Assembly (NCBI RefSeq): GCF_900176375.1
Contig: NZ_FWYF01000003.1
Span: 682,001-746,000, forward strand
Direction of reading: 5' to 3'
DNA length: 64,000 nucleotides
Source of the DNA: Reichenbachiella faecimaris
GTDB lineage: Bacteria > Bacteroidota > Bacteroidia > Cytophagales > Cyclobacteriaceae
The notes beneath the pieces are model-generated. The model did no database searches. It was given only the letters and a program-made list of their open reading frames with translations, and was not told the origin of the DNA. Below are positions 2,360 to 23,072 of the stretch, piece by piece. Made by a program: the position numbers and the translations under genes. How positions within the stretch are numbered: the first letter of the stretch is position 1; each line of letters begins with the position of its first letter.

Positions 2360-2366
2360 TTAGGCA

Positions 2367-2741: not shown

Positions 2742-2781
2742 GTCAGTAGAATTGATAATTTTTGCATCAAAGTAATAACAC

Positions 2782-4155: not shown

Positions 4156-4159
4156 ACTT

Positions 4160-4837: not shown

Positions 4838-5144
4838 TTATTTCTCTTTGAATCTTTTGGGGCGTCATCATCCGATTTATTCGGATGATCCGTAAGTACA
4901 AACAGCTGTAGTTGCTGATCAGCTTACATAATTCAGGCAGATAGCCCGAATTTATATTGGGATACCATTTTTCGCCTTTGTTGGTGTTGTCACCAACAAC
5001 TCTCAAAAGAAATCTGAATGGTAAGCTTACTATACCAAAGTGAGAAGATTTCTCTACTCCGCTTCGGCTCCATTGCGAAATGACAAAAAAAGACTACAAG
5101 CTCAGAGTCGTTATAGAGCAGTAGAAATTGTGAATTATCAATCA

Positions 5145-5174
5145 AATTAATTACGTATTTATACGTAATTAATT
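5145..5174. promoter_or_regulatory. Perfect 30-bp inverted repeat, probable operator of nitrate reductase operon
   Basis: Arms AATTAATTACGTAT (5145-5158) and its exact reverse complement (5161-5174) are separated by TT. The centre lies about 40-42 bp upstream of the start of transcription inferred from the TAnnTTTG box at 5188, the usual place of a class II activator site for CRP/FNR-family dimers. The inner ACGTA is repeated once more at 5184-5188. The regulator is not identified. Confidence 0.65.
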
Positions 5175-5187
5175 CTTGAGAAATACG

Positions 5188-5195
5188 TACTTTTG
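5188..5195 (+). promoter_or_regulatory. Bacteroidota-type -7 promoter box (TACTTTTG)
   Basis: Exact match to TAnnTTTG, 40 bp before the start codon of the nitrate reductase gene. No TTG box is found about 20 bp upstream; the palindrome occupies that place, which fits activator dependence. Confidence 0.55.
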
Positions 5196-5235
5196 TTCAT
5201 GACTCTGAAAACAATCGGAGTTTGGTTCAAAACCA

Positions 5236-8775: not shown

Positions 8776-8805
8776 TTCATTTATATTTGAAGCAAAGTAT
8801 TAAAC

Positions 8806-10227
8806 ATGGAGAAAAAAAATTTGGTCAGGGTATTTGTGAAGGGTGGTATACTTTCTCCTGGTGACTTTTTGCAGATTTTGACAACAGCTAAAGAGCTGGG
8901 GACAGAATTTATCCATCTGGGTTCACGTCAGGACATTCTTTTTCCGGCGAAAGACCAGAGTAAGGCACTGCTTCAAAATATATTCAAGTCCATCAATACC
9001 GAGTACGAGATCAATGAATTTACCCACCAAAACATTGTGAGTTCGTACGTGGCGTTGGATGTGATGCCCAACAAAAAATGGCTCGTGCCGCATGTCTACC
9101 ACTACATACTTGACAGTTTCGACTTTAGAGCCAAATACCGTATCAATCTGGTAGATCCTTCGCAGAGTATGGTGCCATTGTTTACAGGCAATATCAACTT
9201 TATCGCGACGAGCACGGATAATTATTGGTACATGTACTTGCGCTTGAAGCAATTCAATAACTTGCCCATTCCCTACGCAAAAATCATTCATGGCTATGAT
9301 TTGGCCAAAGCAGCATTAGCGCTAAATGAATTGGAGCTCAATGACGAATCACTTTCAGCTGAGGATATTTTTTCGGCCGTAGACCAATTGGAAATCAATA
9401 CGCTCAATCCAGTCGAAGATTTGAATTTTCCCGAACCCGCATTCCCATATTATGAGGGCTTAAATCGTGAGCCGGGAGGTAATTATTGGCTGGGGATATA
9501 CTGGAGAAACAATAAGTTCTCGATCAACTTTCTTATAGCCCTATGCAAAAGATGCATGGAAACCAACGTGGGTAAGATCAGTTTGACGCCGTGGAAATCT
9601 TTGATTGTCAAAGGTATAGAAGAGAACTATTTGGTGGGCTGGGAAAAACTCATGGGACGGTTTGGTATCAACATGAGGCACTCGTCGCTGGAGCTCAACT
9701 GGCACTTGCCAGTATTGAGCGACGAAGCTCTGGAACTCAAAAACTATCTGGTTCGTGCCCTGGATCAGCAGGATATCAGTACTTCTGGCTTGACCTTTAC
9801 CATAAAGCCAAACGACGACATTTACCTTTTTACGTCCGTAGTGATTGAGATCAATACAGCAGAGGGAGATGGAAGCAATACGTACAATATCCTGTATGCC
9901 AAGAGCTTCAATCCAAACTCTGCTGAGTACGTCACTTACGTGAAAAACGTGACAAAAAATGTACTGCCGGCCTTGTTGATGGAGCTGAGTGTGATGTATT
10001 TCGATCAGATAGACGACCAACCAAAAGCAGCTACCAAAAAAGAAGTAGCACCAAAAGCTGCGCAAGTTTCAGAGCGCTATCAGTGCAAGCACTGCCTGAC
10101 CATCTACGATGCGCAGTATGGCGACGAAGCTGCTGATATCGCTCCTGGTACCTTGTTCGACAAGCTCCCAGATTCTTATATCTGCCCGACTTGCGAGGCC
10201 AAGAAGCAAGAGTTTGTGGTGGTTTAA
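8806..10227 (+). CDS. Siroheme-reductase-like protein with C-terminal rubredoxin
   Basis: 473 residues, 30 bp behind the nitrate reductase and probably in its operon. Residues 1-410 resemble the ferredoxin-like half domains of nitrite/sulfite reductases (KISLTPWKSLIVKGI is like their conserved core), yet the C-x5-C / C-x3-C ligands of siroheme and [4Fe-4S] are absent. An Ala/Lys linker (about 405-420) leads to a complete rubredoxin domain (about 426-470) with CKHC and CPTC. It may pass electrons to the nitrate or nitrite reductase, but no catalytic role can be read from it. Confidence 0.75.
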   Translation: MEKKNLVRVFVKGGILSPGDFLQILTTAKELGTEFIHLGSRQDILFPAKDQSKALLQNIFKSINTEYEINEFTHQNIVSSYVALDVMPNKKWLVPHVYHYILDSFDFRAKYRINLVDPSQSMVPLFTGNINFIATSTDNYWYMYLRLKQFNNLPIPYAKIIHGYDLAKAALALNELELNDESLSAEDIFSAVDQLEINTLNPVEDLNFPEPAFPYYEGLNREPGGNYWLGIYWRNNKFSINFLIALCKRCMETNVGKISLTPWKSLIVKGIEENYLVGWEKLMGRFGINMRHSSLELNWHLPVLSDEALELKNYLVRALDQQDISTSGLTFTIKPNDDIYLFTSVVIEINTAEGDGSNTYNILYAKSFNPNSAEYVTYVKNVTKNVLPALLMELSVMYFDQIDDQPKAATKKEVAPKAAQVSERYQCKHCLTIYDAQYGDEAADIAPGTLFDKLPDSYICPTCEAKKQEFVVV

Positions 10228-10245
10228 GGCAGTTCTTGGGTAAAT

Positions 10246-10278
10246 AAACCTGTAAGGTTTTAAAAACCTTGCAGGTTT
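10246..10278. terminator. Hairpin after nitrate operon
   Basis: Stem AAACCTGtAAGGTTT / AAACCTTgCAGGTTT with a very small AT loop and one mismatch. It lies 18 bp after the rubredoxin gene and fits a terminator or a Bacteroidota intergenic hairpin. Confidence 0.6.
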
Positions 10279-10384
10279 CGTCTACGGAGGCAGGTGGGTC
10301 AGTTATCCATTTTTTTAAATGCTTATAAACGTATATAAATGTTTATTTCAATACTTAAGTTAATCATTTTGCAGTATTTGCCTT

Positions 10385-11536
10385 ATGGTTCAGCACAACT
10401 CGAACAAGTCTATTACGCTTAAGCATTTAGCCATTGGGGGCAAGCGCTATATTGGTATCAAATTTTATCCTGATAAGGTGCTACAGGCATTAGTAAAAGA
10501 CTTATCACAAATTGGTTGGAGCAACAAATTCCAAATGACAGTGTTACCCAATAATAAAGAAAACTTGCATCTGATTTGTGAAAAATTTAAAGGTGTGGCC
10601 TGGATCAATACACAACATTTTTTCATAAATAGACCCGTCAATCACGGTAATGAAAAACTTTCAGTGGACGCCTATAGGAAAAGACCGCCAAAAAATGGGT
10701 GGCGCTACTGTCCTGAAGAGTATTATCAAAAACTGGAGATCAGAAAATATTCAATCCATACCGCTAGGTCATACATAGGGATGTTCGAAAAGTACATCAA
10801 CCACTTCTCCAAGTCTCAGGATTTGATGTCACTAGACGAACTGGATATAAAAAAATACATCCAACATCTGGTGCAGCAGAGCAAATCTGACAGCTATATC
10901 AATCAAGCACTAAATGCCATAAAGTTTTACTATGAGGTAGTCAAAGGGATGCCAAATAGATTCTATGATGTGGAGCGACCTATCAAATCTGAAACCCTGC
11001 CCAAAATATTGAGCCAACAGCAGGTACTTAATATCATTGAAAATACCACCAACCTAAAACATCGCTGTATAGTAAGTTTGCTTTATTCTTCCGGCATAAG
11101 GAGGGGTGAGTTGGTAGCCTTGAAATTGGGAGATATCATAAGCGATCGTATGCTCATCCGAGTAAATAGAGGAAAAGGGCGAAAGGATAGGTATACTTTA
11201 CTAAGTGAGACCATTCTGAATGACTTGAGAATTTACTTTAGGCAATACCGCCCACAAAAATATTTGTTTGAATGTAAGCCAGGGATTCAGTATTCGGCCA
11301 GCAGTGTAGGTAAAGTAGTAGCCAAAGCTGCCGAAAAAGCCCGAATTTTAGAACGTGTCACCCCGCATATGTTACGTCATTCCTTTGCCACTCATTTGCT
11401 GGAGAATGGAACAGATCTGCGACAAATCCAAACATTGCTGGGGCATAATTCTCTAAAAACAACAGAACTGTACACTCATGTGGCTATAAAAGGGATGAAC
11501 ACAATAAAAAATCCCTTAGATTTGAAAAAACACTGA
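10385..11536 (+). CDS. Tyrosine recombinase, putative cassette integrase (not canonical IntI)
   Basis: 383 residues. A ~100-residue N-terminal domain (GKRYIGIKFYPDK..., with IGWS) is of a kind seen in Bacteroidota integrases. A SAM-like core-binding domain (about 119-205) and the catalytic domain follow. All catalytic residues are visible: R239 (GIRRGE), K264 (RGKGRKDR), H328 and R331 (HMLRHSF), H354 (LLGH), Y363 (ELYTHV). The K-to-H distance is 64 residues, XerD-like, so the IntI-specific insertion before HxxR is absent. The end, IKNPLD, resembles the SPLD tail of integron integrases. It points toward the cassettes, opposite to class 1 integrons. It could also be a XerC/D-like phage-type integrase unrelated to the sites; adjacency argues against this. 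Confidence 0.9.
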   Translation: MVQHNSNKSITLKHLAIGGKRYIGIKFYPDKVLQALVKDLSQIGWSNKFQMTVLPNNKENLHLICEKFKGVAWINTQHFFINRPVNHGNEKLSVDAYRKRPPKNGWRYCPEEYYQKLEIRKYSIHTARSYIGMFEKYINHFSKSQDLMSLDELDIKKYIQHLVQQSKSDSYINQALNAIKFYYEVVKGMPNRFYDVERPIKSETLPKILSQQQVLNIIENTTNLKHRCIVSLLYSSGIRRGELVALKLGDIISDRMLIRVNRGKGRKDRYTLLSETILNDLRIYFRQYRPQKYLFECKPGIQYSASSVGKVVAKAAEKARILERVTPHMLRHSFATHLLENGTDLRQIQTLLGHNSLKTTELYTHVAIKGMNTIKNPLDLKKH

Positions 11537-11538
11537 AG

Positions 11539-11577
11539 GTATATCACGCACTAGTGCGTGATATACGGATGTTATGC
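11539..11577 (+). repeat. Site s0: 28-bp perfect palindrome plus GTTATGC core, attI-like
   Basis: GTATATCACGCACT (11539-11552) is followed by its exact reverse complement (11553-11566), then GGAT and the core GTTATGC (11571-11577). Read backward from the core, its right half (AAC-ATCCGTATATCACGC) has the same 15-nt layout as the right halves of s1-s11 and is very like s11 (AAC-GTCCGTATATGGCGA). A proper AAC box is missing on the left. It begins 3 bp after the recombinase stop codon, so it may be terminator, insertion site, or both. Confidence 0.65.
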
Positions 11578-11600
11578 GCAAATGTGCTAATCAGAAAACT

Positions 11601-12098
11601 ATGAGGTACTTGAACATTATTGCGATTCTTTGGATTCTGAACTCTTGCAGTACCCCGAACTCCAAAACTGCCAACGATGAAACTCCAATGGATTCAGTAA
11701 CGGTCGAACAAGCAATTCTAACTGAACCAACATTGGAATCCGATATGGCATCCGAACAAGAAATTGAAGAGGAACTACCTGTAACATTTGACTCAACTGG
11801 AAGACCAAGCCGACCAGTTTTCAAGAACGTTCAAGTTGACACCTCTGAACTCTTTGGCATTTGGACTGTAGACCCAACTGGCCCGCATGCGGATTTTGTG
11901 CTATCGAAAGAGGGCTACTACGTTGTAGACTCTGACGGAGGGGGAACCGTTCCTTTCATCTTAGACGGAAAAACCCTGACACTTTTCAACGAAGAATTTA
12001 AACAAGACTTAGAAATTCTTTCAACTAAAAACGACTCGTTGCGAACATATATTAAAGAGTACGATTACGAAGCGACATATACAAGATGGAAGAATTAA
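11601..12098 (+). CDS. Cassette 1: small lipoprotein
   Basis: 165 residues from ATG 11601, chosen because it begins a clear lipoprotein signal (MRYLNIIAILWILNSCS). The frame stays open back to the ATG inside the s0 core (11574), which would add nine residues. The mature part is acidic and low in complexity up to residue 70, then a compact domain with GIWTVDPTGPHADF and DSDGGGTVPF, resembling small lipocalin-like copper-resistance or DUF-type lipoproteins of Bacteroidota. No family assigned. Expected on a membrane facing the periplasm. 4 bp before site s1. Confidence 0.75.
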   Translation: MRYLNIIAILWILNSCSTPNSKTANDETPMDSVTVEQAILTEPTLESDMASEQEIEEELPVTFDSTGRPSRPVFKNVQVDTSELFGIWTVDPTGPHADFVLSKEGYYVVDSDGGGTVPFILDGKTLTLFNEEFKQDLEILSTKNDSLRTYIKEYDYEATYTRWKN

Positions 12099-12102
12099 AG
12101 CG

Positions 12103-12334
12103 CATAACAGACGCTGATCGGGCATATGTCTCAGTGCTTTCTGACTGGTTTCAGTGCAATTCGACCGTGAATCTGCCGCTGAGAATCGGCAGTGCTTTCT
12201 ACTTACTTCTGCTCGCAGGATTTTTAGTCTTTCAGAGCGCAGTGCCATTTGGAACCGTTGTGAGCTTCGGCAGATTTCACTACTTTAGTGCTATTCCCCA
12301 GCTGTGGACATACGCCCGATAGCTGGTCGTTATG
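12103..12334 (+). repeat. Site s1, attC-like, 232 bp
   Basis: Left end CATAAC (12103-12108), right end GTTATG (12329-12334). The arms pair as CGCTGATCGGGCATATGTC against GGACATACGCCCGATAGC. A12124 faces C12313. The centre shares stretches with s3 (gaccgtgaa, tctgcc, cactacttta). Confidence 0.8.
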
Positions 12335-12377
12335 ATCAATTTCGGAACTCAAAAAGACCACCTAAAAAATTATAGAA

Positions 12378-13220
12378 ATGAAAAAACTATTCTTAATACC
12401 CATTGTATTCATCAGTTTTCTTACCCATGCTCAAATCCAATTTGGAACTTGGAGAACAACAACAGGGAATACAGACTATCATTTTCTCACCAGAGACGGT
12501 GGTGGAACTGCTGTTTATATAAATCAAATATCAACTGACGCTTCAAAGGCCATCTTAAGACTTTCTAGCGGTACGGCAACCCCTAACCAGAACGTCAGGT
12601 TTACAGTTGAAAACAATGGATTTGTTGGAATAGGGGTGATTGATCCATCACAAAGATTAGAAGTAAATGGCACCACCCTATCAACAACTTTTAGATCCAC
12701 TCTGAATAATACCAATTATCACCATTTGACCAGAGACGGTGGTGGAGCAGCTTTATACATAAATCAAGTACAATCGAATTCCACCTATCCAATTCTAAGG
12801 TTATCAAGCGGAACTTCTGACCCTAATCAAAACGTAAGATTTACAGTTGAAAATAATGGTAGCGTAGGAATTGGGACAATCAATACTGGTTCATATAAAT
12901 TAGCAGTAAATGGATCAATTAGATCTAAAGAAGTAAAAGTTGAGGCCAATTGGTCTGATTTTGTCTTCTACGATAATTATGAACTTCGAACGCTTGAAGA
13001 AGTAGAGCAACATATCAATGAAAAGGGACATCTCCCAGAAATCCCAAGCGAAGCAGAAATAACTGAGAACGGAATCAACCTTGGAGAGATGGATGCCAAG
13101 CTGCTTCAGAAGATTGAGGAACTAACTCTCTACATGATCGAGATGAACAAACGTATGGGGCAACTTGAACAAGAGAACTCCGAACTGAAAAAAGAGGTTT
13201 CTGCCCTGAAGAACGAATAA
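12378..13220 (+). CDS. Cassette 2: secreted S74-tail-like surface protein
   Basis: 280 residues with a signal peptide ending THAQ. Two ~75-residue repeats (YHFLTRDGGGTAVYIN / YHHLTRDGGGAALYIN, each ending in VENNG.VGIG) are followed by a C-terminal region typical of Bacteroidota proteins with tail-fibre/S74-like ends: KLAVNGSIRSKEVKVEA, WSDFVFYDNYELR, LPEIPSEAEITENG, then a Leu/Glu coiled coil. The C-terminus is nearly identical to that of cassette 5, while the N-terminal repeats differ. Probably exported and multimeric; function unknown. Confidence 0.78.
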   Translation: MKKLFLIPIVFISFLTHAQIQFGTWRTTTGNTDYHFLTRDGGGTAVYINQISTDASKAILRLSSGTATPNQNVRFTVENNGFVGIGVIDPSQRLEVNGTTLSTTFRSTLNNTNYHHLTRDGGGAALYINQVQSNSTYPILRLSSGTSDPNQNVRFTVENNGSVGIGTINTGSYKLAVNGSIRSKEVKVEANWSDFVFYDNYELRTLEEVEQHINEKGHLPEIPSEAEITENGINLGEMDAKLLQKIEELTLYMIEMNKRMGQLEQENSELKKEVSALKNE

Positions 13221-13225
13221 AAGAT

Positions 13226-13339
13226 CATAACAAAATGTATAGTGAATGCGCTTTCGAGCTATTTTTCAACTTTTCTGCAACTCGATACTTTCCTGCTACT
13301 GGAAAGTGTGAGCGCACTCACCATACATTGGCGTTAGGT
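13226..13339 (+). repeat. Site s2, attC-like, 114 bp
   Basis: Left CATAAC (13226-13231), right GTTAGGT (13333-13339), which fits the canonical GTTRRRY exactly. The arms AATGTATAGTGAATGCGC and GCGCACTCACCATACATT pair with two A/C mismatches, one of them A13246/C13317. It is close in sequence to s5. Confidence 0.85.
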
Positions 13340-13358
13340 GTAATATCAGAAAATTCAA

Positions 13359-13913
13359 ATGTCATCTGGACTAAAAATATTTAGAGAAGATTTTCTTAAC
13401 GCCAACACATGGCCGCAACGGAAGGATGGAGTACCTCTTGATTTATTGGACAACCTGAACTCAGATGAACTTAGGGTTGCTGAAAACGAACTTATTGCTA
13501 TTGCGGATACAAAAGATGATTGGCCCATTAAAGGTCTCGGCCACATCAAATCAGAAAAATCACTTCCTAAGCTTTATGAACTTCTAAAGAGAAGTAAGAA
13601 ACTGATGAAGGTAACAATTGCGGAAGCAATTTATCAGATCTGTGGGGACGAACAAATGATTAACATCGCTCTAACTGAAACCCCGAAAATCTCAAATGAA
13701 TTTGCTCTTATTGATGTGATGTATACTTTGTCAAAATTTCAAGATGGCAGAGTTAAGAATTTGCTGAACGACTATAGAAATCACACTAAATACCTTGTAG
13801 CATACAATGCAACCCAAGCGCTAGGACTTCCAACTGAACCTGTGGTTGATAAATTCAGAGATCATAAACCAACATCCTTTTGGAACAGGATAACATCACC
13901 CTGGAACAACTAA
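13359..13913 (+). CDS. Cassette 3: HEAT-like repeat protein
   Basis: 184 residues, no signal peptide, so cytoplasmic. Alternating helices with the pattern of HEAT/PBS-lyase-like repeats (GHIKSEKSLPKLYELLKR; VTIAEAIYQIC; LIDVMYTLSKFQDGRVKNLL; YLVAYNATQALG). Such proteins bind partners; no catalytic motif seen. Starts 20 bp after the s2 core and ends 4 bp before s3. Confidence 0.65.
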   Translation: MSSGLKIFREDFLNANTWPQRKDGVPLDLLDNLNSDELRVAENELIAIADTKDDWPIKGLGHIKSEKSLPKLYELLKRSKKLMKVTIAEAIYQICGDEQMINIALTETPKISNEFALIDVMYTLSKFQDGRVKNLLNDYRNHTKYLVAYNATQALGLPTEPVVDKFRDHKPTSFWNRITSPWNN

Positions 13914-13917
13914 AAAC

Positions 13918-14149
13918 ACCTAACAGACTGTATGCGGCATGTGCTTACGTGCTTTCCACAATCTGCATCTGGACTTGACCGTGAAGTCTGCCACCGAGAA
14001 TTTTTTGAGTTTGTTTGCAACTTCAGCTCGCGGGAATTTTTCACTTCAGGACGCACTGCTTTCTAAAAACTTTGGAAGCACTGGCAGTCTTCACTACTTT
14101 AGAGCTATCCATAAAGTAAGAGCACACGCCTCATACATGGACGTTGTGC
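13918..14149 (+). repeat. Site s3, attC-like, 232 bp
   Basis: Left ACCTAAC (13918-13924) fits the canonical RYYYAAC; right GTTGTGC (14143-14149). Arms GTATGCGGCATGTGC / GCACACGCCTCATAC. A13939 faces C14127. Same length as s1, and the inner parts are related. Confidence 0.82.
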
Positions 14150-14168
14150 TTCATGCTAGTAACCGCCT

Positions 14169-15215
14169 ATGAAATCAATTAAAGACTTAATATACTTCGA
14201 TACAGATAAGGCCAAGTCATTAATAAGCCAATTGAACGATGGACTTATAAGTGAAATCTCAAGAGCAATCGAAGATGAAACTGAAGAGTCGGCAGGACTT
14301 GGTTTTGATGTTAAGATAGTAAAAGGAAGCCTAGGTGATAAAACAAAGGAACGTTCCTTAAGAACTGAAAAAATTGAGCTTTATCACGAAATGCTTAATA
14401 CAATTGAGCATGATTTGTTGGAGAAAAACTTACTAACTCCGATAAATCAAACCTTTGATAATTGGAAGGGCTCATTCAATGATTTCATGGATGAGATTCC
14501 TAACTTCAACTATATCAAAGCAACAGGGTGGGCAAGTTTTGAGGATTTTGAGAGATTCAAAAGAATACTTTCTAATTTCAACGAAATCCAAAGATTAATA
14601 TTTACATCACAACTACTAGAAACACCTGAGTATCGTTCACTTCAAGATCAAATTGAACAGGCAAAAAAAACAGCTAATCAGAACTCAGACAGAAATCTAA
14701 AAGCAAAGGACCTTAACAAAATAAAAGCCCTCGAAAAGAAAATAGATGATATTCTAAAAGAACAAAGTAGCATTCATCTGTTTGATGAAGATTGGGTTGA
14801 AAGAGTTAGGACATTCTTAGACACATTTTCTCCTGAAAGATTAAACTTTAGACTACTTCCATTAGATCATTTTGGAGACTTTCAGATTTTATCTAACCTC
14901 AAGGCTAAATTTATGCTTGACGGCAACTTTGAAAACACCATTTTCACTTATGGATCACGGCCGAATATCAAATTAAGCGTAATAGGAATTATTACATCAT
15001 GCCCAAGAAAAGATGACCCAAGGGTTCACCCAAGTGATGAATATCTAGCCTATTCAGATGATGAACTCTCTGATGAAGGCCAGTTTGACAAGGCATTTAG
15101 AAGAGTGTTTGATTCCTTTGAGGCATTTGAGAAATTCTTCTTTGTTCCAAGCTTTCCTAAAATAGCAATTAGCCCAATAGCTATTTACAGGGAAGTAAAG
15201 TTCGAAAAACAATAA
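14169..15215 (+). CDS. Cassette 4: DUF6414-like cytoplasmic protein
   Basis: 348 residues without signal peptide. The start KDLIYFDTDKAKSLISQLNDG matches, from memory, the opening of DUF6414-type proteins (YLDTD...SL.AQL). A charged helical middle (about 165-205) is probably coiled coil. The C-terminal half has LSVIGIITSCPRKD and ends in hydrophobic strands. No enzyme motif seen. Function unknown; proteins of this type turn up in accessory and defence regions, which is context only. Confidence 0.6.
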   Translation: MKSIKDLIYFDTDKAKSLISQLNDGLISEISRAIEDETEESAGLGFDVKIVKGSLGDKTKERSLRTEKIELYHEMLNTIEHDLLEKNLLTPINQTFDNWKGSFNDFMDEIPNFNYIKATGWASFEDFERFKRILSNFNEIQRLIFTSQLLETPEYRSLQDQIEQAKKTANQNSDRNLKAKDLNKIKALEKKIDDILKEQSSIHLFDEDWVERVRTFLDTFSPERLNFRLLPLDHFGDFQILSNLKAKFMLDGNFENTIFTYGSRPNIKLSVIGIITSCPRKDDPRVHPSDEYLAYSDDELSDEGQFDKAFRRVFDSFEAFEKFFFVPSFPKIAISPIAIYREVKFEKQ

Positions 15216-15223
15216 ACACGAAA

Positions 15224-15386
15224 GCACAACAAACGCTATGAATGAATGGGGTTTCATCGGTCAGGATATTTTTGTGGGGGGTTGGAAAGTCCGCCACAAG
15301 TTTTAAATTTAAATTAAGGCGTGGCTATGTGCGAGACGAGAGGTTAGTGCTTTCTAATCCCCACTCATCATAGCTGGACGTTATGA
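15224..15386 (+). repeat. Site s4, attC-like, 163 bp
   Basis: Left GCACAAC (15224-15230), right GTTATGA (15380-15386). Arms CTATGAATGAATGGGG / CCCCACTCATCATAG with one extra A on the left and A15246 facing C15364. It contains the inner word GGCTAT at 15323. The body is almost identical to s8, four to five changes in about 140 bp. Confidence 0.85.
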
Positions 15387-15406
15387 TCAATTCTAAATAG
15401 AACAAT

Positions 15407-16489
15407 ATGAAAAAACTAATTCTTCTCTCCTTAGCGTATCTGATGCATTTTATATCCTATGCGCAATGGAACGAAGTTGGAAAAATTTCAACAACTTCAA
15501 CGGGAACTATAGGTAGTGGTAATTTTTCTAATTCTTACATATACGTATCGGATGGTTCCCAAAAGATGGGAATTGATCCTAACCAAATTTACGCTGGACA
15601 GGACCTAAACTTTTCCGCATCTACGTTTATAAAATTTTTGACTGAAGATGTAGAAAGACTTAGAATTTCACAAAATGGGAATATAGGAATTGGAGTAACA
15701 AACCCTATTAATGCTTTACATCTAGCAAACCTGACCAATGATGGAATTAATCTCAATTCTGAATTTAGATTAAGGACGTCATCTGTATCCAATAATTTTG
15801 TGCTTGAACATATTGCAGATGAGGGGAACTTAATTATTCGAAGCATTGAAGCGGGTGATATTGATGGAGATTTGATTATAAATGATTTAGGCGGAAATGT
15901 TGGTATAGGAGTAAATAATCCATTGGCTAAATTATCAATACAAAGCTCGGGAACAATTGGCTCTGGAGATTATCAAAATTCATCGGTTTATTTGACAGAT
16001 GGTTCTCAAAAGATGGGAATTGATCCTAACCAAATTTACGCTGGACAAGACCTAAACTTTTCCGCATCTACATTCATAAAAATTTTGACCGCAGATGTAG
16101 AAAGACTTAGGATTTTACAAAATGGGAGCGTTGGAATTGGAACATCTACAACCGGAACTCACAAGCTAGCCGTAGAAGGCTCTATCGGAGCAAGAGAAAT
16201 CAAAGTAGAGGCAAGTGGGTGGTCAGACTTCGTTTTCTATGATAGCTATAAACTACGATCCCTTGAAGAAGTCGAAGAACATATAAATGAGAAAGGACAT
16301 CTTCCTGAAATCCCAAGTGAAGCAGAAGTAACGGAGAATGGAGTCAACTTGGGGGAGATGGATGCTAAATTGCTTCAGAAAATTGAGGAACTAACCCTCT
16401 ATCTAATCGAGCAAAACAAGGAGCTGAAAACTGCGAACCAACGAATCGAACAACTGGAACAGAAAATTTCTCAACTAGAGAACGAATAA
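15407..16489 (+). CDS. Cassette 5: secreted S74-tail-like surface protein
   Basis: 360 residues, signal peptide MKKLILLSLAYLMHFISYAQ. Two long repeats with SGTIGSG, VSDGSQKMGIDPNQIYAGQD and ADVERLRI. The C-terminal part (KLAVEGSIGAREIKVEA, WSDFVFYDSYKLR, LPEIPSEAEVTENG, coiled coil) is nearly the same as in cassette 2. The variable front with a common tail resembles modular adhesins. Starts 20 bp after the s4 core. Confidence 0.78.
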   Translation: MKKLILLSLAYLMHFISYAQWNEVGKISTTSTGTIGSGNFSNSYIYVSDGSQKMGIDPNQIYAGQDLNFSASTFIKFLTEDVERLRISQNGNIGIGVTNPINALHLANLTNDGINLNSEFRLRTSSVSNNFVLEHIADEGNLIIRSIEAGDIDGDLIINDLGGNVGIGVNNPLAKLSIQSSGTIGSGDYQNSSVYLTDGSQKMGIDPNQIYAGQDLNFSASTFIKILTADVERLRILQNGSVGIGTSTTGTHKLAVEGSIGAREIKVEASGWSDFVFYDSYKLRSLEEVEEHINEKGHLPEIPSEAEVTENGVNLGEMDAKLLQKIEELTLYLIEQNKELKTANQRIEQLEQKISQLENE

Positions 16490-16494
16490 AAGAT

Positions 16495-16608
16495 CATAAC
16501 AAAATGTATAGTGAATGCGCTTTTGAGCTCTTTTCGACTGTCTCTGCAATTCGATACTGCAGTGATATTGGAGAGTGCAAGCGCACTCACCATACATAAG
16601 CGTTACCC
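16495..16608 (+). repeat. Site s5, attC-like, 114 bp
   Basis: Left CATAAC (16495-16500), right GTTACCC (16602-16608). A16515 faces C16586. Arms as in s2, and the stem base sequence is shared with s2 over most of its length. Confidence 0.83.
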
Positions 16609-16619
16609 ACAATACTCTC

Positions 16620-17378
16620 ATGAGACAGATATTCTTCTACTTCCTACTTCTACTAGCTCACAGCATACTTGCCCAACAACCTAAGACGCAACCTTTGAAC
16701 ATCAACGGTAAAGACCTCAGCACAGTTTGGCTAACGGAGTATCCAAGATTTAACGAGGGGAAAGAAATTCGGAAGACTGAACCTGTTGGGTATTTCGGTC
16801 AAAACTACTGGAGATTTTACATCCACTTTATTTCCATTATCCAAAACCCAGAGAACCCGAACGAATACTTTGTTTATGGTAAGAACAGGCTTAAAGGTAA
16901 TATCAGTGAAATTCAAGGAACACTAAAAATTGAATCTGCCGAAGTATATGAAGAGGAATTCTCGGAAGGTATTCGAGAAGGAATCATCAAAGGAACCTAT
17001 CAACTCAACGAAGACCGAAAAAAGTCTGGAACAGGAAAATTCACTGGAACATTCGAGACATATGTAATGATCAGTGACAACAACATACAATACAGCACTC
17101 TTTATTGGTACGCTGACGGCTTTATGAACAACCAATTCGAAGGGACTTGGACAAGTTTCTCAAGTGGAAAATCATATATCTGTAACTGGGGTGATAATCG
17201 TATTCCGAACAGACAGGGCTTTGATATTGGTGCCGGACAGATGGGAGTTCATCCAGATTATGAGAAGAACGGTTGGGAGAACTTCGAACTTGCAACATTC
17301 CCGATAGCCAACTCGGACGAACATCGACGACAAATTGAAGAAGCCAAGAAGAAGGAAGCTGAAGAATGGTGGAAATGA
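16620..17378 (+). CDS. Cassette 6: secreted protein of unknown family
   Basis: 252 residues from ATG 16620, which starts the signal peptide MRQIFFYFLLLLAHSILAQ; the frame is open further upstream but that lies inside s5. The mature part is rich in Gly/Thr/Trp/Tyr strands (FKGTYQL-like: IIKGTYQLNEDRK, KFTGTFETYV, FEGTWTSFSSGK), suggesting a lipocalin- or barrel-like fold. Lysine/Glu-rich C-terminal helix. No known family recognised. Ends 5 bp before s6. Confidence 0.7.
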   Translation: MRQIFFYFLLLLAHSILAQQPKTQPLNINGKDLSTVWLTEYPRFNEGKEIRKTEPVGYFGQNYWRFYIHFISIIQNPENPNEYFVYGKNRLKGNISEIQGTLKIESAEVYEEEFSEGIREGIIKGTYQLNEDRKKSGTGKFTGTFETYVMISDNNIQYSTLYWYADGFMNNQFEGTWTSFSSGKSYICNWGDNRIPNRQGFDIGAGQMGVHPDYEKNGWENFELATFPIANSDEHRRQIEEAKKKEAEEWWK

Positions 17379-17383
17379 AATGT

Positions 17384-17613
17384 GGGTAACAAGGTGTAGG
17401 CACGAATGCCCTTGCGAGCTTTTCGAATCAATGCCAGAATCAGCACCACCGATCCTCGCGGAATCTCTAGAATACCGATAACGCATTCGTGGTTTCCGCA
17501 GCAGTCCAAATCTAGGCTAATGGCTAAACAGACTTTTGTGGTTGTGCGCGGATCGGCTATCTTTCTGCTTTAATCAAGCTGTGAGGGCACATCGTCCTAC
17601 ACAGGCGTTGTAA
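17384..17613 (+). repeat. Site s6, attC-like, 230 bp
   Basis: Left GGGTAAC (17384-17390), right GTTGTAA (17607-17613). A17406 faces C17590. Inner word GGCTAT at 17555. The body is highly similar to s11 although the genes before them are unrelated. Confidence 0.83.
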
Positions 17614-17646
17614 ACAAGCTGAACAAACATCGTAACTTAAAAGATT

Positions 17647-18081
17647 ATGGCAGACACATATAGAATTGGAAAAGATGGAGTAAAAGTGACTTTTCCATCA
17701 AGTGGATATACATATCGCGAAGGAAAGGACGGACGAGTAGTTGCTTTTCCATCAAGTGGATATACTTATCGAGAAGGAAAAAATGGAAGAGTTGTAGCAT
17801 TCCCTTCTAGCGGTTACACATATCGTGAAGGGAAAGATGGAAAGGTTGTTGCCTTTCCTTCAAGTGGTTATACTTATCGAGAGGGAAAAGACGGTAGAGT
17901 TATAGCATTTCCATCTAGCGGACATACATATAGAGAGGGAAAAGATGGTAGAGTTGTCGCATTTCCTTCAAGTGGATATACATATCGTGAAGGAAAAGAT
18001 GGCAGAGTGGTTGCATTTCCATCATCAGGATACACATACAAGGAAAATAAGAGTGGACGAATAGTTGCTAAAAAGCTTTAA
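17647..18081 (+). CDS. Cassette 7a: protein made of seven 18-residue repeats
   Basis: 144 residues, almost wholly tandem copies of YTYREGKDGRVVAFPSSG (18 residues, 54 nt). The copies are near-identical in protein but differ at many third codon positions, so selection keeps the protein sequence. Tyr, Gly and alternating charged/hydrophobic residues suggest beta-hairpin repeats. No signal peptide. First gene of a two-gene cassette; a 4-bp gap separates it from 7b. Function unknown. Confidence 0.75.
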   Translation: MADTYRIGKDGVKVTFPSSGYTYREGKDGRVVAFPSSGYTYREGKNGRVVAFPSSGYTYREGKDGKVVAFPSSGYTYREGKDGRVIAFPSSGHTYREGKDGRVVAFPSSGYTYREGKDGRVVAFPSSGYTYKENKSGRIVAKKL

Positions 18082-18085
18082 GAAA

Positions 18086-18541
18086 ATGGATTATAATGAA
18101 TTAATATCAAATGGAAAGCCGAAAATAAAATCAAGAATTGATGGCGATTTTGAAGGTTTTGATGACGAGATCCTCTTTCCTCTTTACAATGGTCAATTTT
18201 GGATTCAAAAAAATTATAAATATTGGTATCATTATTCTTATATGGCTAATGTAACTATTTATGAATACCGGAACAGTTACTTTTTGACTGTTGACGGACA
18301 AAAACAATTCGTAGAAGTTGAATTAATAGATGATGTCATTAAAGCAACGATAGTTAACGATTTTAATGGATGGTCAGGAGACACAATTTTTGAACTTGAT
18401 AATGGACAAATATGGAAACAAAGCGAGTATGATTATGACTATAATTATTCGTACAGACCTGATGCAATAATATATTCGAATGGCTACGATTACAAAATTC
18501 TTGTAGAAGGAAATAGTGTTGGCGTCAAAAGAATTAAATAA
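18086..18541 (+). CDS. Cassette 7b: two-repeat Tyr/Trp-rich protein
   Basis: 151 residues from ATG 18086. Two tandem ~70-residue modules share FEGFDDEILFPLYNGQFW / FNGWSGDTIFELDNGQIW, then a Tyr-rich stretch (YWYHYSY / YDYNYSY), an IYE/IYS strand and a closing VDG/VEG strand. Probably a small beta fold. It resembles short hypothetical proteins found singly elsewhere, but I cannot name the family. Cytoplasmic as read. Confidence 0.7.
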   Translation: MDYNELISNGKPKIKSRIDGDFEGFDDEILFPLYNGQFWIQKNYKYWYHYSYMANVTIYEYRNSYFLTVDGQKQFVEVELIDDVIKATIVNDFNGWSGDTIFELDNGQIWKQSEYDYDYNYSYRPDAIIYSNGYDYKILVEGNSVGVKRIK

Positions 18542-18548
18542 AGCCAGT

Positions 18549-18679
18549 TTACAACAATGGCTATAAGTAATTGCTTTTTCTCGCCTACTTCTGAAAATCC
18601 TCGCGGATTTTCAGTTTGGTGTGTACTTGCTAAGTTAAGTGCTAAACCACGCAACTACTCATAGCCGAGACCGTTAGCA
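18549..18679 (+). repeat. Site s7, attC-like, 131 bp
   Basis: Left TTACAAC (18549-18555), right GTTAGCA (18673-18679). Arms TGGCTATAAGTAATTGC / GCAACTACTCATAGCC with two A/C mismatches, one of them A18570/C18655. Its centre is unlike the other sites. Confidence 0.8.
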
Positions 18680-18691
18680 TCAATTTACTGC

Positions 18692-19777
18692 ATGAAGAAA
18701 TTACTACTTTTAATCTTTGTCATCTCTCAATTCGCAGCATTTGCGCAAGTACCAGACCAACAGCCAATTCCTGAATTTGTCCTAAAAGGTAAGTCAATGA
18801 ACGAACTCAGAATAATGAGAAATGAAATCTTCGCTAGATATGGTTACATCTTTAACTCTCAAGACTTATCCGAATACTTTGAAACCAAACTATGGTATAA
18901 CCCAACGAGCTCAAATGTCGATGATAAACTTACTGATATTGATAAGTCCAATATCGATCGAATTTTGAAATTTGAAAATCTCGCAAAAGACTCATTTAAT
19001 CCTTCAGTTGCAACTGAAACCGAGGCATATTTCAGAGTCTACGAGGATCCAATATCTGGTGACAGATTAGAAACCTCTAGAAACGTAACCTTCCATCGAC
19101 ATTATAAATACGGTATGATAAGAAAGGTCGTTGAACGAACTTTCACCGGGGCAGAAAAACTTCCAACAGTTATATATGCCGAGACTACTGATTCGTCAAA
19201 ACCTTTTTGGGAAACAACTAAATATTATGATGACTTGGAGTTTGAGTCAAACTACTTTCAAGCAATTGAATATGGTTGTTGCGGGGCTGAAAACTACGGA
19301 GAACTCTTTAGCTACGATTCAGATGAGCCTTTCTTGAAATTCAATAAAAACTACTATACCGTTGACATTCCAAACAGCAAAATCCATATGTTCTTAGGTT
19401 ATTGCCATGAACATTCAGGACGTGACGGGACTACAATATCAACTCTCTATCTGTCGACTTTAGATGGAGTAGTTAGTTCAATTACGTTTGTTGCAACTAC
19501 TCAACAAAGCAAAGAAGACCTTCCTTGGTATTGGACACCAAAAATTGAACTCCGAACTGAGAATGAAGAGAACAAGATTATCAGAGATGGTCAGGAAATT
19601 AGATTATGGGGGAGCAATTTTGCAAAGTCCTTAAGTAATATTAATGATTTCTCAGTCTTTATTGAATTTTGGAGTGAGGGAACAGGTGAAAAGGCTCAAT
19701 TTAACATTCCAATAACCAATGGTAGATTTTACGGAGCGAACGAACTGAACACAAAAATCACTGTGAATTTAGAATGA
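18692..19777 (+). CDS. Cassette 8: secreted YARHG-domain protein
   Basis: 361 residues with signal peptide MKKLLLLIFVISQFAAFAQ. Residues about 30-92 form a YARHG domain (LRIMRNEIFARYGYIF...LWYNP), an extracellular module of bacterial envelope proteins. The rest (about 110-361) is beta-rich with a CCG and a CHEH element and matches no family I recognise. Starts 12 bp after the s7 core. Confidence 0.75.
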   Translation: MKKLLLLIFVISQFAAFAQVPDQQPIPEFVLKGKSMNELRIMRNEIFARYGYIFNSQDLSEYFETKLWYNPTSSNVDDKLTDIDKSNIDRILKFENLAKDSFNPSVATETEAYFRVYEDPISGDRLETSRNVTFHRHYKYGMIRKVVERTFTGAEKLPTVIYAETTDSSKPFWETTKYYDDLEFESNYFQAIEYGCCGAENYGELFSYDSDEPFLKFNKNYYTVDIPNSKIHMFLGYCHEHSGRDGTTISTLYLSTLDGVVSSITFVATTQQSKEDLPWYWTPKIELRTENEENKIIRDGQEIRLWGSNFAKSLSNINDFSVFIEFWSEGTGEKAQFNIPITNGRFYGANELNTKITVNLE

Positions 19778-19782
19778 AAAGA

Positions 19783-19934
19783 TGCTAACATATGCTATGA
19801 ATGAATGGGGTTTCATCGGTCAGGATATTTTCGTGGGGATTGGAAAGTCCGCCACAAGTTTTAAATTTAAATCAAGGCGTGGCTATGTGCGAGACGAGAG
19901 GTTAGTGCTATCTAATCCCCACTCATCATAGCTG
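19783..19934 (+). repeat. Site s8, attC-like, 3' core lost
   Basis: Left TGCTAAC (19783-19789) and nearly the whole body match s4, including GGCTAT. After CATAGCTG the expected GACGTTATGA is replaced by ATCGATGAGC, which runs into an open frame. The right-hand core is therefore deleted or recombined away. Confidence 0.75.
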
Positions 19935-20051
19935 ATCGATGAGCAAGGAAATATTCAACACTCCATTATTCCCGAATTAACTCAATTTTCAAACACAGGT
20001 AGTTGGAGTTGGCATAAGATATTTTCAGCCACTATTTTTACTATGCACTGA
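19935..20051 (+). pseudogene. 3' fragment of a gene fused to site s8
   Basis: From the point where s8 breaks off, 38 codons read open to TGA at 20049-20051 (IDEQGNIQHSIIPELTQF...). No start codon or gene beginning is present. This is what a deletion joining s8 to the end of a vanished cassette gene would leave. Chance openness over 38 codons cannot be ruled out. Confidence 0.4.
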
Positions 20052-20082
20052 TATAGGCAATATTTATTAACATATTTAACGA

Positions 20083-20280
20083 ATGGAATATCTTGTTAAA
20101 ATTTTATCACTCATTATTGTAATCCTTGTTTTTGGTTTTATTGGAGCATTGATAAGATTTATTTTCATAAAAGAAAAACGTAGTTTCTGGTTGGTTTATA
20201 CCGAAAGGCTTTACCTAAACTATGTAATAGCGATTGGTTTACTTACCTTGATTGCCTTAGTGTACTTGAATATTAAGTAA
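20083..20280 (+). CDS. Cassette 9a: small two-helix membrane protein
   Basis: 65 residues; membrane segments at about 5-28 and 45-63 around a basic/aromatic loop (KEKRSFWLVYTERLYLN). ATG 20083. It precedes the next membrane gene by 7 bp. No family known. Confidence 0.6.
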   Translation: MEYLVKILSLIIVILVFGFIGALIRFIFIKEKRSFWLVYTERLYLNYVIAIGLLTLIALVYLNIK

Positions 20281-20287
20281 CTAATCT

Positions 20288-21243
20288 ATGCGAAGTAAAT
20301 TAAATTTCTTTACAAGCATCTTAACTGCTTCTTTACTTACCATAATTATGGGTGGACTTTCTACCATGATGATACTGGTATCCTTAAAGATGGTTGAAGA
20401 CGGAAAATCAGACACTCTGTTTAAAACTCCTATATATGCTGCTATTGTTTTTGTAGGGCTTTTGATTTGGGTAATCTGGATTTACTTGAATAATTGCAAA
20501 ACTGTTATCTTATCAAATAAAGGATTGCATATCAAATCAGTAATGGGATCTACATTTTATCTATGGTCAGAAGTCAAATTTGTATCGTTACTTGATAAGC
20601 ACTATTTATATGGTTCTGCAATGGAAGCTACCACTATAAAATTCAAAAATGGTAAAGTTTATCACTTCATGCCGTTTTATTATAGCAATGCTGACTATTT
20701 AAGGAGGTGTTTAAGTAAAGTTAACTTGTCTTTAACTACCAACTCAATAGATTTTGAGACACTGAAAAACCGAAACTCTAGAAGCCTACAAAAAATTGAT
20801 TACTCAGGAATGAAAAAAATTGGTGGTAATCCAGTTTTTTCATTTAATGGTATTTTTTTTATACAGTTTTGGGTTTTGTAATATACCAGATAGTATTCAA
20901 CCCATCAGAAAACTTTCTAAATCAATGTATTGGGTTAGGTTTTGCTGGGCTACTTTTCTTCTACTGGCTTGGGTATCAACTGCACTATTTCTATATAGAC
21001 GACAAGAATTTAGTAGTTAAGAATTACGTATGGATTTGGCGAACTAAGAGATATCCTCTGAATCAAATTAAACAAGGCGTATTTGAAATGCCACATAAAA
21101 TGTCAACTTCATTTAGAATAGTCAATACAGACTTTACTTCTAAGCTCTTTCCTGGTGGCAGCATAAGAACTAAAAACTGGATAAAATTTATAGAGAAACT
21201 AAAGAAGCATAAAATAAGTGTCAGAAATGAAGCTGTCTACTGA
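20288..21243 (+). pseudogene. Cassette 9b: membrane protein with two PH-like domains, -1 frameshift at a T8 run
   Basis: The first frame (20288-20881) has two membrane helices then a PH-like domain (VILSNKGLHIKSVMG...LWSEVKFV). The second frame (to 21243) has two more helices, then a second PH-like domain (FYIDDKNLVVKNYVW...RYPLNQIKQ). The frames join by a -1 shift at the T-run 20853-20860, giving a coherent protein of about 318 residues with membrane helix IFFYTVLGFVIYQIVF across the junction. One T missing by mutation or sequencing error, or ribosomal slippage at the T-run, would all explain it. Confidence 0.6.
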
Positions 21244-21249
21244 AAATAC

Positions 21250-21442
21250 AGATAACATGCTGTGATAAAATCATGCTTGGACAATGCTAGACGAAATTTT
21301 CCTGCATTCTGGCAACCCCACCAATTCTGCGAATTAGTCTATAAAAAACAACAAATGTAATAGCCCATTTCGCAGAGTTGGCTATTTAGTAGACGAAACA
21401 TTAACTTCACAAAAACGCACGATTTATACAGTGACGTTACCT
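21250..21442 (+). repeat. Site s9, attC-like, 193 bp
   Basis: Left AGATAAC (21250-21256), right GTTACCT (21436-21442). A21273 faces C21420. Inner word GGCTAT at 21380, 56 bp before the core. Arms CTGTGATAAAATCATGC / GCACGATTTATACAG. Confidence 0.8.
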
Positions 21443-21450
21443 ATCATGCC

Positions 21451-22107
21451 ATGCGAAACTTACTAATTATTTTCTGTACTGCTATAATTTCATTTAGCTG
21501 TTCTCCAACATCCAACATAAGTCCTGAAAAACTTGCGAAAAATGCCTGTGAATGTTTCTCGCAACTTAATTCTGGATCTATTGACGAACGTTCGACTCCA
21601 TGCCTTTCAACACCAATTAACGACAACCAAGAAGAGATTCTTGACAAGTACTATTCGAACTTAACACTTCAAGATGCATTGACAACTCACATGATGAAGG
21701 TTACCGTTGTTATGATTCAAAGCTGCGACAAGTATTTTGATGAACTCGACGGAATGTTCACAAACATGTATCCCGAAACGCCAGATTCAGATGTCATTTT
21801 AGATATTCAAGCTCTTCAAGACTCAATTAACGATATACAACTTGCTGATTCCATTAAACTGAATTTATTGCACAAAAAGCTTGCTCTTTTGACTAAATCA
21901 AGACAATTAGAAGAAGCATTAAACCTTGCTGATAGTATCTCTAACGACTATTCTGAATCTGAAACGTACCTGATAAGAACATATATTTTCACCCTTCAAG
22001 GTAAATATGAAATGGCACTCGAACAGGTTAATAAAGCTGTTAACGCAGGTAATAAAGGCTATAACATTTTCGGCGAACTTATAAAGAGGAAGAAAAAAGA
22101 TAGGTAA
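21451..22107 (+). CDS. Cassette 10: lipoprotein with TPR-like C-terminus
   Basis: 218 residues. Lipoprotein signal MRNLLIIFCTAIISFSCS. A Cys pair follows (NACECF, STPC), then a helical region ending in TPR-like repeats (LTKSRQLEEALNLADSISNDY; TLQGKYEMALEQVNKAVNAG). Expected at the inner or outer membrane. Its stop codon lies inside the left end of s10. ATG 21451 is 9 bp after the s9 core. Confidence 0.72.
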   Translation: MRNLLIIFCTAIISFSCSPTSNISPEKLAKNACECFSQLNSGSIDERSTPCLSTPINDNQEEILDKYYSNLTLQDALTTHMMKVTVVMIQSCDKYFDELDGMFTNMYPETPDSDVILDIQALQDSINDIQLADSIKLNLLHKKLALLTKSRQLEEALNLADSISNDYSESETYLIRTYIFTLQGKYEMALEQVNKAVNAGNKGYNIFGELIKRKKKDR

Positions 22108-22289
22108 CAATCGATATGACAGCAGGGCGGTTCAGAGGTAAAAGAAGCGGTTGAGCTTTTGGAAGCCCCGCCATATCTCAGATTAGCACTATGGAATCAA
22201 AAAGGGATAGCGCAAATCAGAGATTTGGCTATCTTGTATTCGAAACTTAAACTAAACCAAGCGCCACGCTTGATACAGAGGCGTTCACA
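22102..22289 (+). repeat. Site s10, attC-like, 188 bp
   Basis: Left AGGTAAC (22102-22108) overlaps the stop codon of cassette 10; right GTTCACA (22283-22289). A22124 faces C22267. Inner word GGCTAT at 22227, 56 bp before the core. The arms pair less well than in other sites. Confidence 0.72.
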
Positions 22290-22339
22290 TCCATTGGACT
22301 ACAGTGCGAAAATGTTACGAAATTCCCTACCTTTACACT

Positions 22340-22549
22340 ATGACGATTGAACAACGAAAACTGGAACTCATAACCTGGATAACTGCTATTCAGGATGAAG
22401 ATTTGCTCGAACGCATTGAGGATTTTCGTCATAACCCCCGGCCTGAAATTCCAGATGCTATCTTAGAACTCCTACGAGAATCAAGCTCAGCGAAACTGGA
22501 GGACTGTATCGAACACACAAGTGCTCGCGAACTTTTAGGGCGCAATTGA
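22340..22549 (+). CDS. Cassette 11a: antitoxin-like protein of a ParE-type pair
   Basis: 69 residues from ATG 22340. Short helical, acidic protein (MTIEQRKLELITWITAIQDEDLLERIEDF), the usual look of small Bacteroidota antitoxins paired with ParE. Its stop TGA overlaps the start TTG of the toxin gene (TTGA, 22546-22549), so the two are translationally coupled. No clear DNA-binding motif seen. Confidence 0.72.
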   Translation: MTIEQRKLELITWITAIQDEDLLERIEDFRHNPRPEIPDAILELLRESSSAKLEDCIEHTSARELLGRN

Positions 22550-22848
22550 AAACAGTTTGGACACCTCTGGGTCTTAAATCTCTTGACAAGACAACCAACT
22601 TCATTGAGGAACAGTGGAACGAGGATGTTGTTGACAACTTTCTCGATCAACTAGACGAACGCATTGAACAACTTAAGAGAAATCCTCGAATTGGGCCGAC
22701 GTATGGCCAGACAGAATTTCGGCAACTTCTTATACATCCTCTGGTAACGCTCTACTACGAACTCAAAACTGACTATATCAGCCTAACTCTCGTTTGGGCT
22801 AACAAGAAAGACCCAGATGAACTACGGGAAGAATTAAAACGGATGTGA
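22546..22848 (+). CDS. Cassette 11b: ParE/RelE-superfamily toxin
   Basis: 100 residues, TTG start overlapping the antitoxin stop. Pattern of ParE toxins: WTPLGLKSLDKTTNFIEEQW, DQLDERIEQLKRNPRIGP, FRQLLIHPLVTLYYEL and LTLVWANKKDPDEL. ParE toxins act on gyrase, RelE ones on ribosome-bound mRNA; which applies is not decided by sequence. Toxin-antitoxin pairs are typical stabilisers of large cassette arrays. The stop codon lies inside the left end of s11. Confidence 0.85.
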   Translation: MKTVWTPLGLKSLDKTTNFIEEQWNEDVVDNFLDQLDERIEQLKRNPRIGPTYGQTEFRQLLIHPLVTLYYELKTDYISLTLVWANKKDPDELREELKRM

Positions 22849-23072
22849 ACATGGCGTATCGCGAATGCCCTTGCGAGCTTTTCGAATCAATGCCAGAATC
22901 AGCACCACCGTTCCTCGTGGAATCTCTAGAATACCGAGAAAGCATTCGAACGTTCCGCAGCAGTGTAATTCTAGAGCAATGGCCAAACGGACTTTTTGTG
23001 GTTGTGCGCGGATCGGCTATCTTTCTGCCTTAATCAAGCTGTGAGGGCACTCGCCATATACGGACGTGACAA
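22844..23072 (+). repeat. Site s11, attC-like, 229 bp, last site
   Basis: Left TGTGAAC (22844-22850), right GTGACAA (23066-23072), so the last core has GTG instead of GTT. A22865 faces C23050. Inner word GGCTAT at 23015. The body is a close copy of s6. Confidence 0.8.

Follow-up and report, generated by a model that had tools for sequence, protein, structure and literature searches.

The window analysed here is a 64,000-nt stretch of Reichenbachiella faecimaris DNA (contig NZ_FWYF01000003.1, positions 682,001-746,000, assembly GCF_900176375.1), in which a tyrosine recombinase gene is followed by a short palindrome and by an array of genes alternating with hairpin sites. Judged from its sequence, this locus is very probably a chromosomal platform for capturing cassettes, belonging to the class Bacteroidia and resembling an integron but run by an Xer/XerA-like tyrosine recombinase that lacks I2, the additional domain specific to the integron integrase IntI. 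Its sequence shows a single module made up of the recombinase, a palindromic first site and the array.

The array comprises 11 hairpin sites, lying between 12106 and 23068, and about 11 cassettes. The initial annotation had described eleven attC-like palindromes of 113-232 bp that alternate with unrelated genes, on one strand, behind a tyrosine recombinase, with near-identical sites following different genes. The number of sites stands, as does the arrangement, all cassette genes being on the + strand; the sizes do not, since the sites measure 107-226 bp from AAC to GTT. Two pairs of sites are nearly identical, namely s6 and s11 (88% in D5, 98% in D8) and s4 and s8 (94%), and in both pairs the genes in front are unrelated. 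Both ends are intact in 9 of the 11 sites. The right core is lost in s8, where GTT has been replaced (..CTGATCGATGAG) and the cassette behind the site (c9) is without its left end, and in s11, whose core reads GTG instead of GTT. A 28-bp palindrome between the recombinase stop codon and the first GTT was absent from the initial annotation. The features, including open reading frames (ORFs), are as follows.

10385-11536, + strand: tyrosine recombinase of 383 aa, with an extra N-terminal domain (aa ~8-85) ahead of the core-binding and catalytic domains
11539-11566, no strand assigned: candidate attI, a perfect palindrome of 28 bp, separated by 4 nt from the first GTT (11571)
11571-12108, + strand: cassette c1 (GTTATGCGC..GCGCATAAC); lipoprotein-like ORF 11574-12098
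12106-12331, + strand: site s1; 89-92% identical sites in loci L039, L040, L041 and L049
12329-13231, + strand: cassette c2; ORF 12378-13220 for a secreted protein, a paralogue of which is encoded in c5
13229-13335, + strand: site s2, 107 bp long; bottom-strand fold z -5.4
13333-13924, + strand: cassette c3; HEAT-repeat-like ORF 13359-13913
13922-14145, + strand: site s3
14143-15230, + strand: cassette c4; DUF6414 ORF 14169-15215
15228-15382, + strand: site s4, near-identical to s8
15380-16500, + strand: cassette c5; secreted protein ORF 15407-16489
16498-16604, + strand: site s5; bottom-strand fold z -2.75
16602-17390, + strand: cassette c6; secreted protein ORF 16620-17378
17388-17609, + strand: site s6, near-identical to s11
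17607-18555, + strand: cassette c7; repeat protein 17647-18081, ORF 18065-18541
18553-18675, + strand: site s7, 97% identical to a Winogradskyella ursingii site (L086); bottom-strand fold z -3.7
18673-19789, + strand: cassette c8; YARHG-domain protein 18692-19777
19787-19940, + strand: site s8, right core lost
19941-21255, + strand: cassette c9, left end lost; ORFs 20083-20280, 20288-20881 and 20869-21243
21253-21438, + strand: site s9
21436-22108, + strand: cassette c10; lipoprotein-like ORF 21451-22107
22106-22285, + strand: site s10
22283-22850, + strand: cassette c11; small ORF 22304-22549, then ParE-type toxin 22546-22848
22848-23068, + strand: site s11, end of the array, GTG core

A circle inserted at G^TT leaves the two halves of one core at the ends of the cassette, so that each cassette should match itself and not its neighbours. 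We therefore compared the left end of each cassette (GTT plus 6 nt) with the reverse complement of the right end of the same cassette. All 10 testable cassettes of the window gave an own-end match of 9-10 bp (e.g. GTTATGCGC..GCGCATAAC, GTTAGGTGT.., GTTGTAAAC.. and GTTACCTATC..), whereas ends lying opposite each other across a site matched over 3-6 bp only. The own-end runs summed to 93, against a mean of 43 and a maximum of 83 in 20,000 shuffles. These matches are, as far as sequence can tell, scars left when cassettes in circular form were exchanged at G^TT. The same logic underlies a link detector, which calls a hairpin between AAC and GTT together with a 9/9 match from the GTT of the site to the end of the next cassette. 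The detector was designed on the window and its controls were strong; it found 105 links in the window and 22 loci of the same or related genomes, compared with 1 when this DNA was reversed, and no linked site pairs elsewhere in the window.

The recombinase matches PF00589 (E 5e-37) and has all of the catalytic residues R239, K264, H328, R331, H354 and Y363, which are invariant in A1 and invariant or nearly so in A3. Its best sequence matches are of Xer type (NF040815, 211 bits, which is below the cut-off of that model, and 4a8e, 133 bits); the IntI model TIGR02249 gives 184 bits against a cut-off of 265. By fold, too, Xer and XerA are nearest (Z 22.8 and 21.1, versus 19.6 for IntI). Alignment to IntI4 (2a3v) yields two stretches around a gap in which about 43 residues are missing (an insertion of ~42 residues), and the I2 domain that IntI carries before HxxR is not present in the recombinase. 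The KxR-to-HxxR spacing is 58 residues in 33 of 33 core members of the family and 57-65 in 51 wider members, compared with 100 in 19 of 19 IntI proteins and 60-62 in Xer. In two trees IntI forms one clade (support 91 and 100) and the core family another (99 and 89). The recombinase thus lies outside the IntI clade and lacks the IntI insertion, as first annotated. The trees do not resolve the branching order of Xer, IntI and the core family, and with Xer as the only other group the split between IntI and the family is uninformative. The genome itself contains nine PF00589 genes; none encodes an IntI, and two Xers are present besides the recombinase (L002 and L003). The N-terminal domain (aa 8-85, window 10406-10639) is common to many Bacteroidia tyrosine recombinases. 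Its model (pLDDT 84) bears a weak likeness to domains that recognise DNA damage or forks: to the damage-recognition domain of XPB (Z 6.3, root-mean-square deviation 2.2 over 58 residues) and, more faintly, to the HARP domain of SMARCAL1 (Z 3.9). Profiles of HARP and DUF5710 also gave weak matches.

Site statistics were drawn from 298 confirmed sites in 49 loci, and covariation was assessed on 61 dereplicated sites. A site opens with AAC and, after a spacer that is usually 3-4 nt long, forms an imperfect ~18-bp stem whose two arms enclose a loop of widely differing length (up to ~180 bp); the second arm is followed by 4-6 nt and GTT. The core is GTT with R at position 4 (98%), followed by free sequence with no RRY preference; that is, these sites do not match the attC consensus RYYYAAC / GTTRRRY. 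In the stems, all four pair types occur at most positions while 77-92% of the pairs are Watson-Crick, which points to compensatory change. Mismatches that can wobble-pair on one strand only do so mostly on the bottom strand (611, versus 171 on the top strand), and 245 sites lean to the bottom strand but only 23 to the top. Since the transcript has the sense of the top strand, this bias does not reflect RNA structure. Moreover, A.C mispairs (T.G on the bottom strand) stand at fixed places in the stem, concentrated at positions 12 or 13; in the two main registers, A.C is found at position 12 in 90-94% of sites and at position 7 in 67-82%. In place of A.C at the first mark, an unpaired base or a mismatch is seen in some sites of the window, and in the subclades L268, L271 and L276 the marks lie at about 11 and 14. 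Sites from IntI arrays, examined in the same way, showed no bottom bias (23 versus 32; 25 sites) and no A.C marks.

We infer from these patterns that the sites fold as a single bottom strand bearing polarity marks, which are more often mispairs than extrahelical bases. The cassette exchange would be the work of the adjacent recombinase, given that it constantly adjoins the arrays, that its active site is conserved and that IntI is lacking; its substrate would be the bottom strand in hairpin form. Strand and polarity would be signalled by the T.G mispairs that recur at set places in the stem (A.C when read on the top strand), which would take over the role played in integrons by extrahelical bases and the I2 helix. 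The palindromic site that follows the recombinase gene would be the entry point of new cassettes. In 32 of 41 loci an inverted repeat lies ahead of the first GTT, ending mostly 2-7 nt before it; this repeat is the candidate attI of the system and would correspond to the integron attI that adjoins the integrase gene. The N-terminal domain was considered as a reader of the mispairs and rejected: its likeness to XPB stays below Z 8, and at L051 the sites are marked at 7 and 12 although the recombinase (306 aa) has no such domain, which is therefore not needed for the marks.

The enzyme could instead work as Xer does, on double-stranded sites, in which case the hairpins would represent inverted recombinase-binding arms. 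Its nearest structures are indeed Xer and XerA, it has no I2 helix, and its candidate attI, too, is a palindrome of double-stranded DNA. Yet stems of ~18 bp covary around loops of up to ~180 bp and keep their pairing on the bottom strand, a property for which double-stranded DNA would not select, and we consider this reading unlikely.

Evidence that the cassettes are, or have been, mobile comes from related platforms. At L046 (genome G035, one 6.7-Mb contig) the recombinase and one attI are followed by 23 consecutive linked cassettes, 16 of them distinct. A 421-bp cassette, which contains no recognisable forward-strand ORF, occurs five times (2340 to 15601), and cassettes of 898, 777 and 500 bp occur twice each; in every case the copies are 100% identical and the neighbours differ. 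The first cassettes of two species (G133 and G168) are 99.25% identical over 933 bp, while their recombinases are 41% identical. As for the window array, the DNA that it has in common with arrays of other species consists of sites (s7, 97% with the Winogradskyella site; s4, 93% in L040; s6, 94% in L042), no array gene being among the shared stretches. Cassettes thus move as whole units, duplicated and shared between species, and the fixed gene order without exchange that would have spoken against a cassette system was not what the relatives showed, whole cassettes being gained, duplicated and shared.

Platforms differ between genomes as well. In G005, an orthologue of the gene preceding the window recombinase lies ~570 bp before another recombinase with an array of its own; the latter recombinase is 46% identical to that of the window and has no N-terminal domain. 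One chromosomal slot therefore holds two different platforms, one in the window species and one in G005. The slot is situated behind a rubredoxin / nitrite reductase-like gene (window 8806-10227; G005:C1:1022295-1025102) in two species of the genus. Furthermore, the genome of the window contains a second, decayed platform: L037 (contig C7, minus strand, ~12.7-14.6 kb of the locus) carries the C-terminal end only of a truncated recombinase copy, followed by a nearly identical attI palindrome and one cassette (GTTAGATTC, ~1.5 kb).

The window platform could likewise be a real former cassette system that is now inactive in this strain. This would account for the lost cores of s8 and s11, for the lost left end of c9 and for the truncated second recombinase copy on another contig. 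It is nevertheless improbable, given that the recombinase is intact with all its catalytic residues, that nine sites are intact and that fresh identical duplicates occur in relatives.

The family was followed through genomes sampled one per species. A core-alignment scan yielded 80 loci, nearly all from named Bacteroidota and mostly from Flavobacteriaceae, the other hosts being Cytophagales, Crocinitomicaceae, Saprospiraceae, Prolixibacteraceae and one Chlorobiota bin. Among core loci with at least 3 kb of downstream sequence, 34 of 39 had strict links and 37 of 39 had some linked cassette. The corresponding figure for the wider family (33-50% identity) was 20 of 24, a tally that includes four loci by the first-cassette test alone. 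Across the 80 loci there were 144 links in 322 kb downstream of the recombinase, 6 in 707 kb upstream (all at two loci, L098 and L136) and 1 in the reversed control. Contigs end within 400 nt downstream of the recombinase in 24 of the 80 loci and within 400 nt upstream in none, as repeats behind the gene would cause. The initial annotation had proposed a parallel cassette system of Bacteroidota, and both the recombinase family and this kind of array were found across the phylum; a recombinase occurring mostly without such sites, which would have counted against the idea, was not observed. Relatives at E <= 1e-80 occur in 131 of 295 sampled Bacteroidia genomes, 13 of them in the high-scoring core, and the recombinase is present in 31 of 59 related genomes. 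A viral origin was considered and rejected, since viral contigs gave relatives of the core-binding and catalytic parts only and no full-length core member; over the stretch that aligns, identity in these relatives does not exceed 46%, save for one 125-aa fragment at 54%. One IMG/VR contig of 169,658 bp filed as viral (L149) has ten linked cassettes near a wider-family recombinase, with the array upstream.

This distribution also bears on whether a canonical IntI encoded elsewhere acts on these sites, which would make the array a classical integron and the adjacent recombinase a bystander. AAC and GTT ends and circle scars are found in IntI arrays too, and within this phylum such arrays have cassettes whose own ends likewise match over 9-10 bp. 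Canonical IntI, however, is missing from the window's own genome and was found in 1 of the 295 genomes of the class (57 of 198 in a phylum-wide sample, nearly all outside the class); the arrays lie directly downstream of the present recombinase family in most loci; and the sites of IntI arrays have neither the bottom bias nor the A.C marks. We regard this explanation as very unlikely. The sole IntI of the class sample (G095:C40:3592-4530; L239, L287) has no linked cassettes around it. That the sites are mobile repeats of the repetitive extragenic palindromic (REP) or miniature inverted-repeat transposable element (MITE) kind, or transcription terminators between unrelated genes, is scarcely credible: they are palindromic, intergenic and present in near-identical copies, but each cassette end matches its own start and not neighbouring sequence, wobble pairing is biased towards the strand opposite in sense to the transcript, and the sites occur only in arrays behind the recombinase.

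Several points weigh against a platform run by an I2-less recombinase. Recombination itself is here deduced from sequence. I2 is described as needed for cassette capture, and its deletion kills IntI1 (PMC7790495), so that the present enzyme would have to avoid the second strand exchange by some other means. With 2 of 11 sites and one cassette end degenerate, the window copy may be partly decayed. Finally, a recombinase acting in trans, e.g. XerC/D or another of the integrases of the genome, may be the one that acts on the sites.

Like integrons, sedentary chromosomal ones included, the platform has a tyrosine recombinase beside a one-direction array of one-gene cassettes exchanged at G^TT, imperfect hairpin sites that end in AAC and GTT and favour the bottom strand for folding, and toxin-antitoxin as well as duplicated cassettes. 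Unlike integrons, it has a recombinase that falls outside the IntI clade, lacks the insertion containing I2 and in most members bears an N-terminal domain; in addition, the recombinase gene points towards the array, the core is GTTR followed by free sequence (GTTRRRY in integrons), the stems contain fixed T.G mispairs (A.C on the top strand) and the candidate attI is palindromic. With Xer and archaeal XerA the recombinase shares its best sequence and fold matches and the short spacing before HxxR. Judged by its distribution, however, it is not a single housekeeping gene acting at dif: two other Xers are present in its own genome, it is absent from about half of the related genomes, and cassette arrays follow it. 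An IntI-dependent survey could class the array as a CALIN, the IntegronFinder term for clusters of attC sites without an integrase, from which it differs in that a dedicated recombinase of another family adjoins it. Thus the system, as reconstructed here, works like an integron, while on two tested membership definitions (IntI clade and IntI-specific domain) it falls outside the integrons, and it departs from them in core consensus.

The I2 helix has been described as specific to IntI, necessary for cassette capture, conferring single-strand recombination and found in no other protein (PMC7790495, 2020). A survey with IntegronFinder reported almost no complete integrons in Bacteroidetes, the case named being Salinibacter ruber (PMC9024848), and the published integron search method needs a match to the IntI-specific domain profile (PMC9668308). 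This fits the earlier expectation that IntI-based searches would pass over the array. In an integron-like subgroup the insertion has been called 'not fully conserved' (PMC8138268), so that I2-less relatives may have appeared before as proteins, without arrays. No description of such a system was found in the literature searched, which did not extend to preprints and most subscription papers.

Two observations concern the cargo of the window array. The secreted proteins of c2 (12378-13220) and c5 (15407-16489) are paralogues whose 3' ends are 81% identical over 200 nt, and their sites s2 and s5 are alike; the c7 gene is built of 54-bp repeats (window 17654-18085) encoding 18-residue units such as GKDGRVVAFPSSGYTYRE. 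PADLOC gave no defence-gene match among the cassette genes, and Rfam at its curated cut-offs gave no match in the window.

The balance tips slightly towards the stronger claim that the I2-less family acts on cassette sites folded as single strands, and that what it reads in the hairpin is fixed T.G mispairs and not extrahelical bases. If so, I2 would not be required for integron-type recombination, and cassette systems would have arisen twice or existed before IntI gained I2; the family may represent a second origin or an older branch, the tree being compatible with either. A widespread natural system with folded sites and no I2 would open the stated necessity of I2 (PMC7790495), and with it a main idea on how integrons work and arose, to direct test. 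How enzymes of this type select strand and orientation could be approached anew through the mispairs at fixed positions. The class Bacteroidia would then have its own large pool of mobile gene cassettes, passed over by IntI-based searches.

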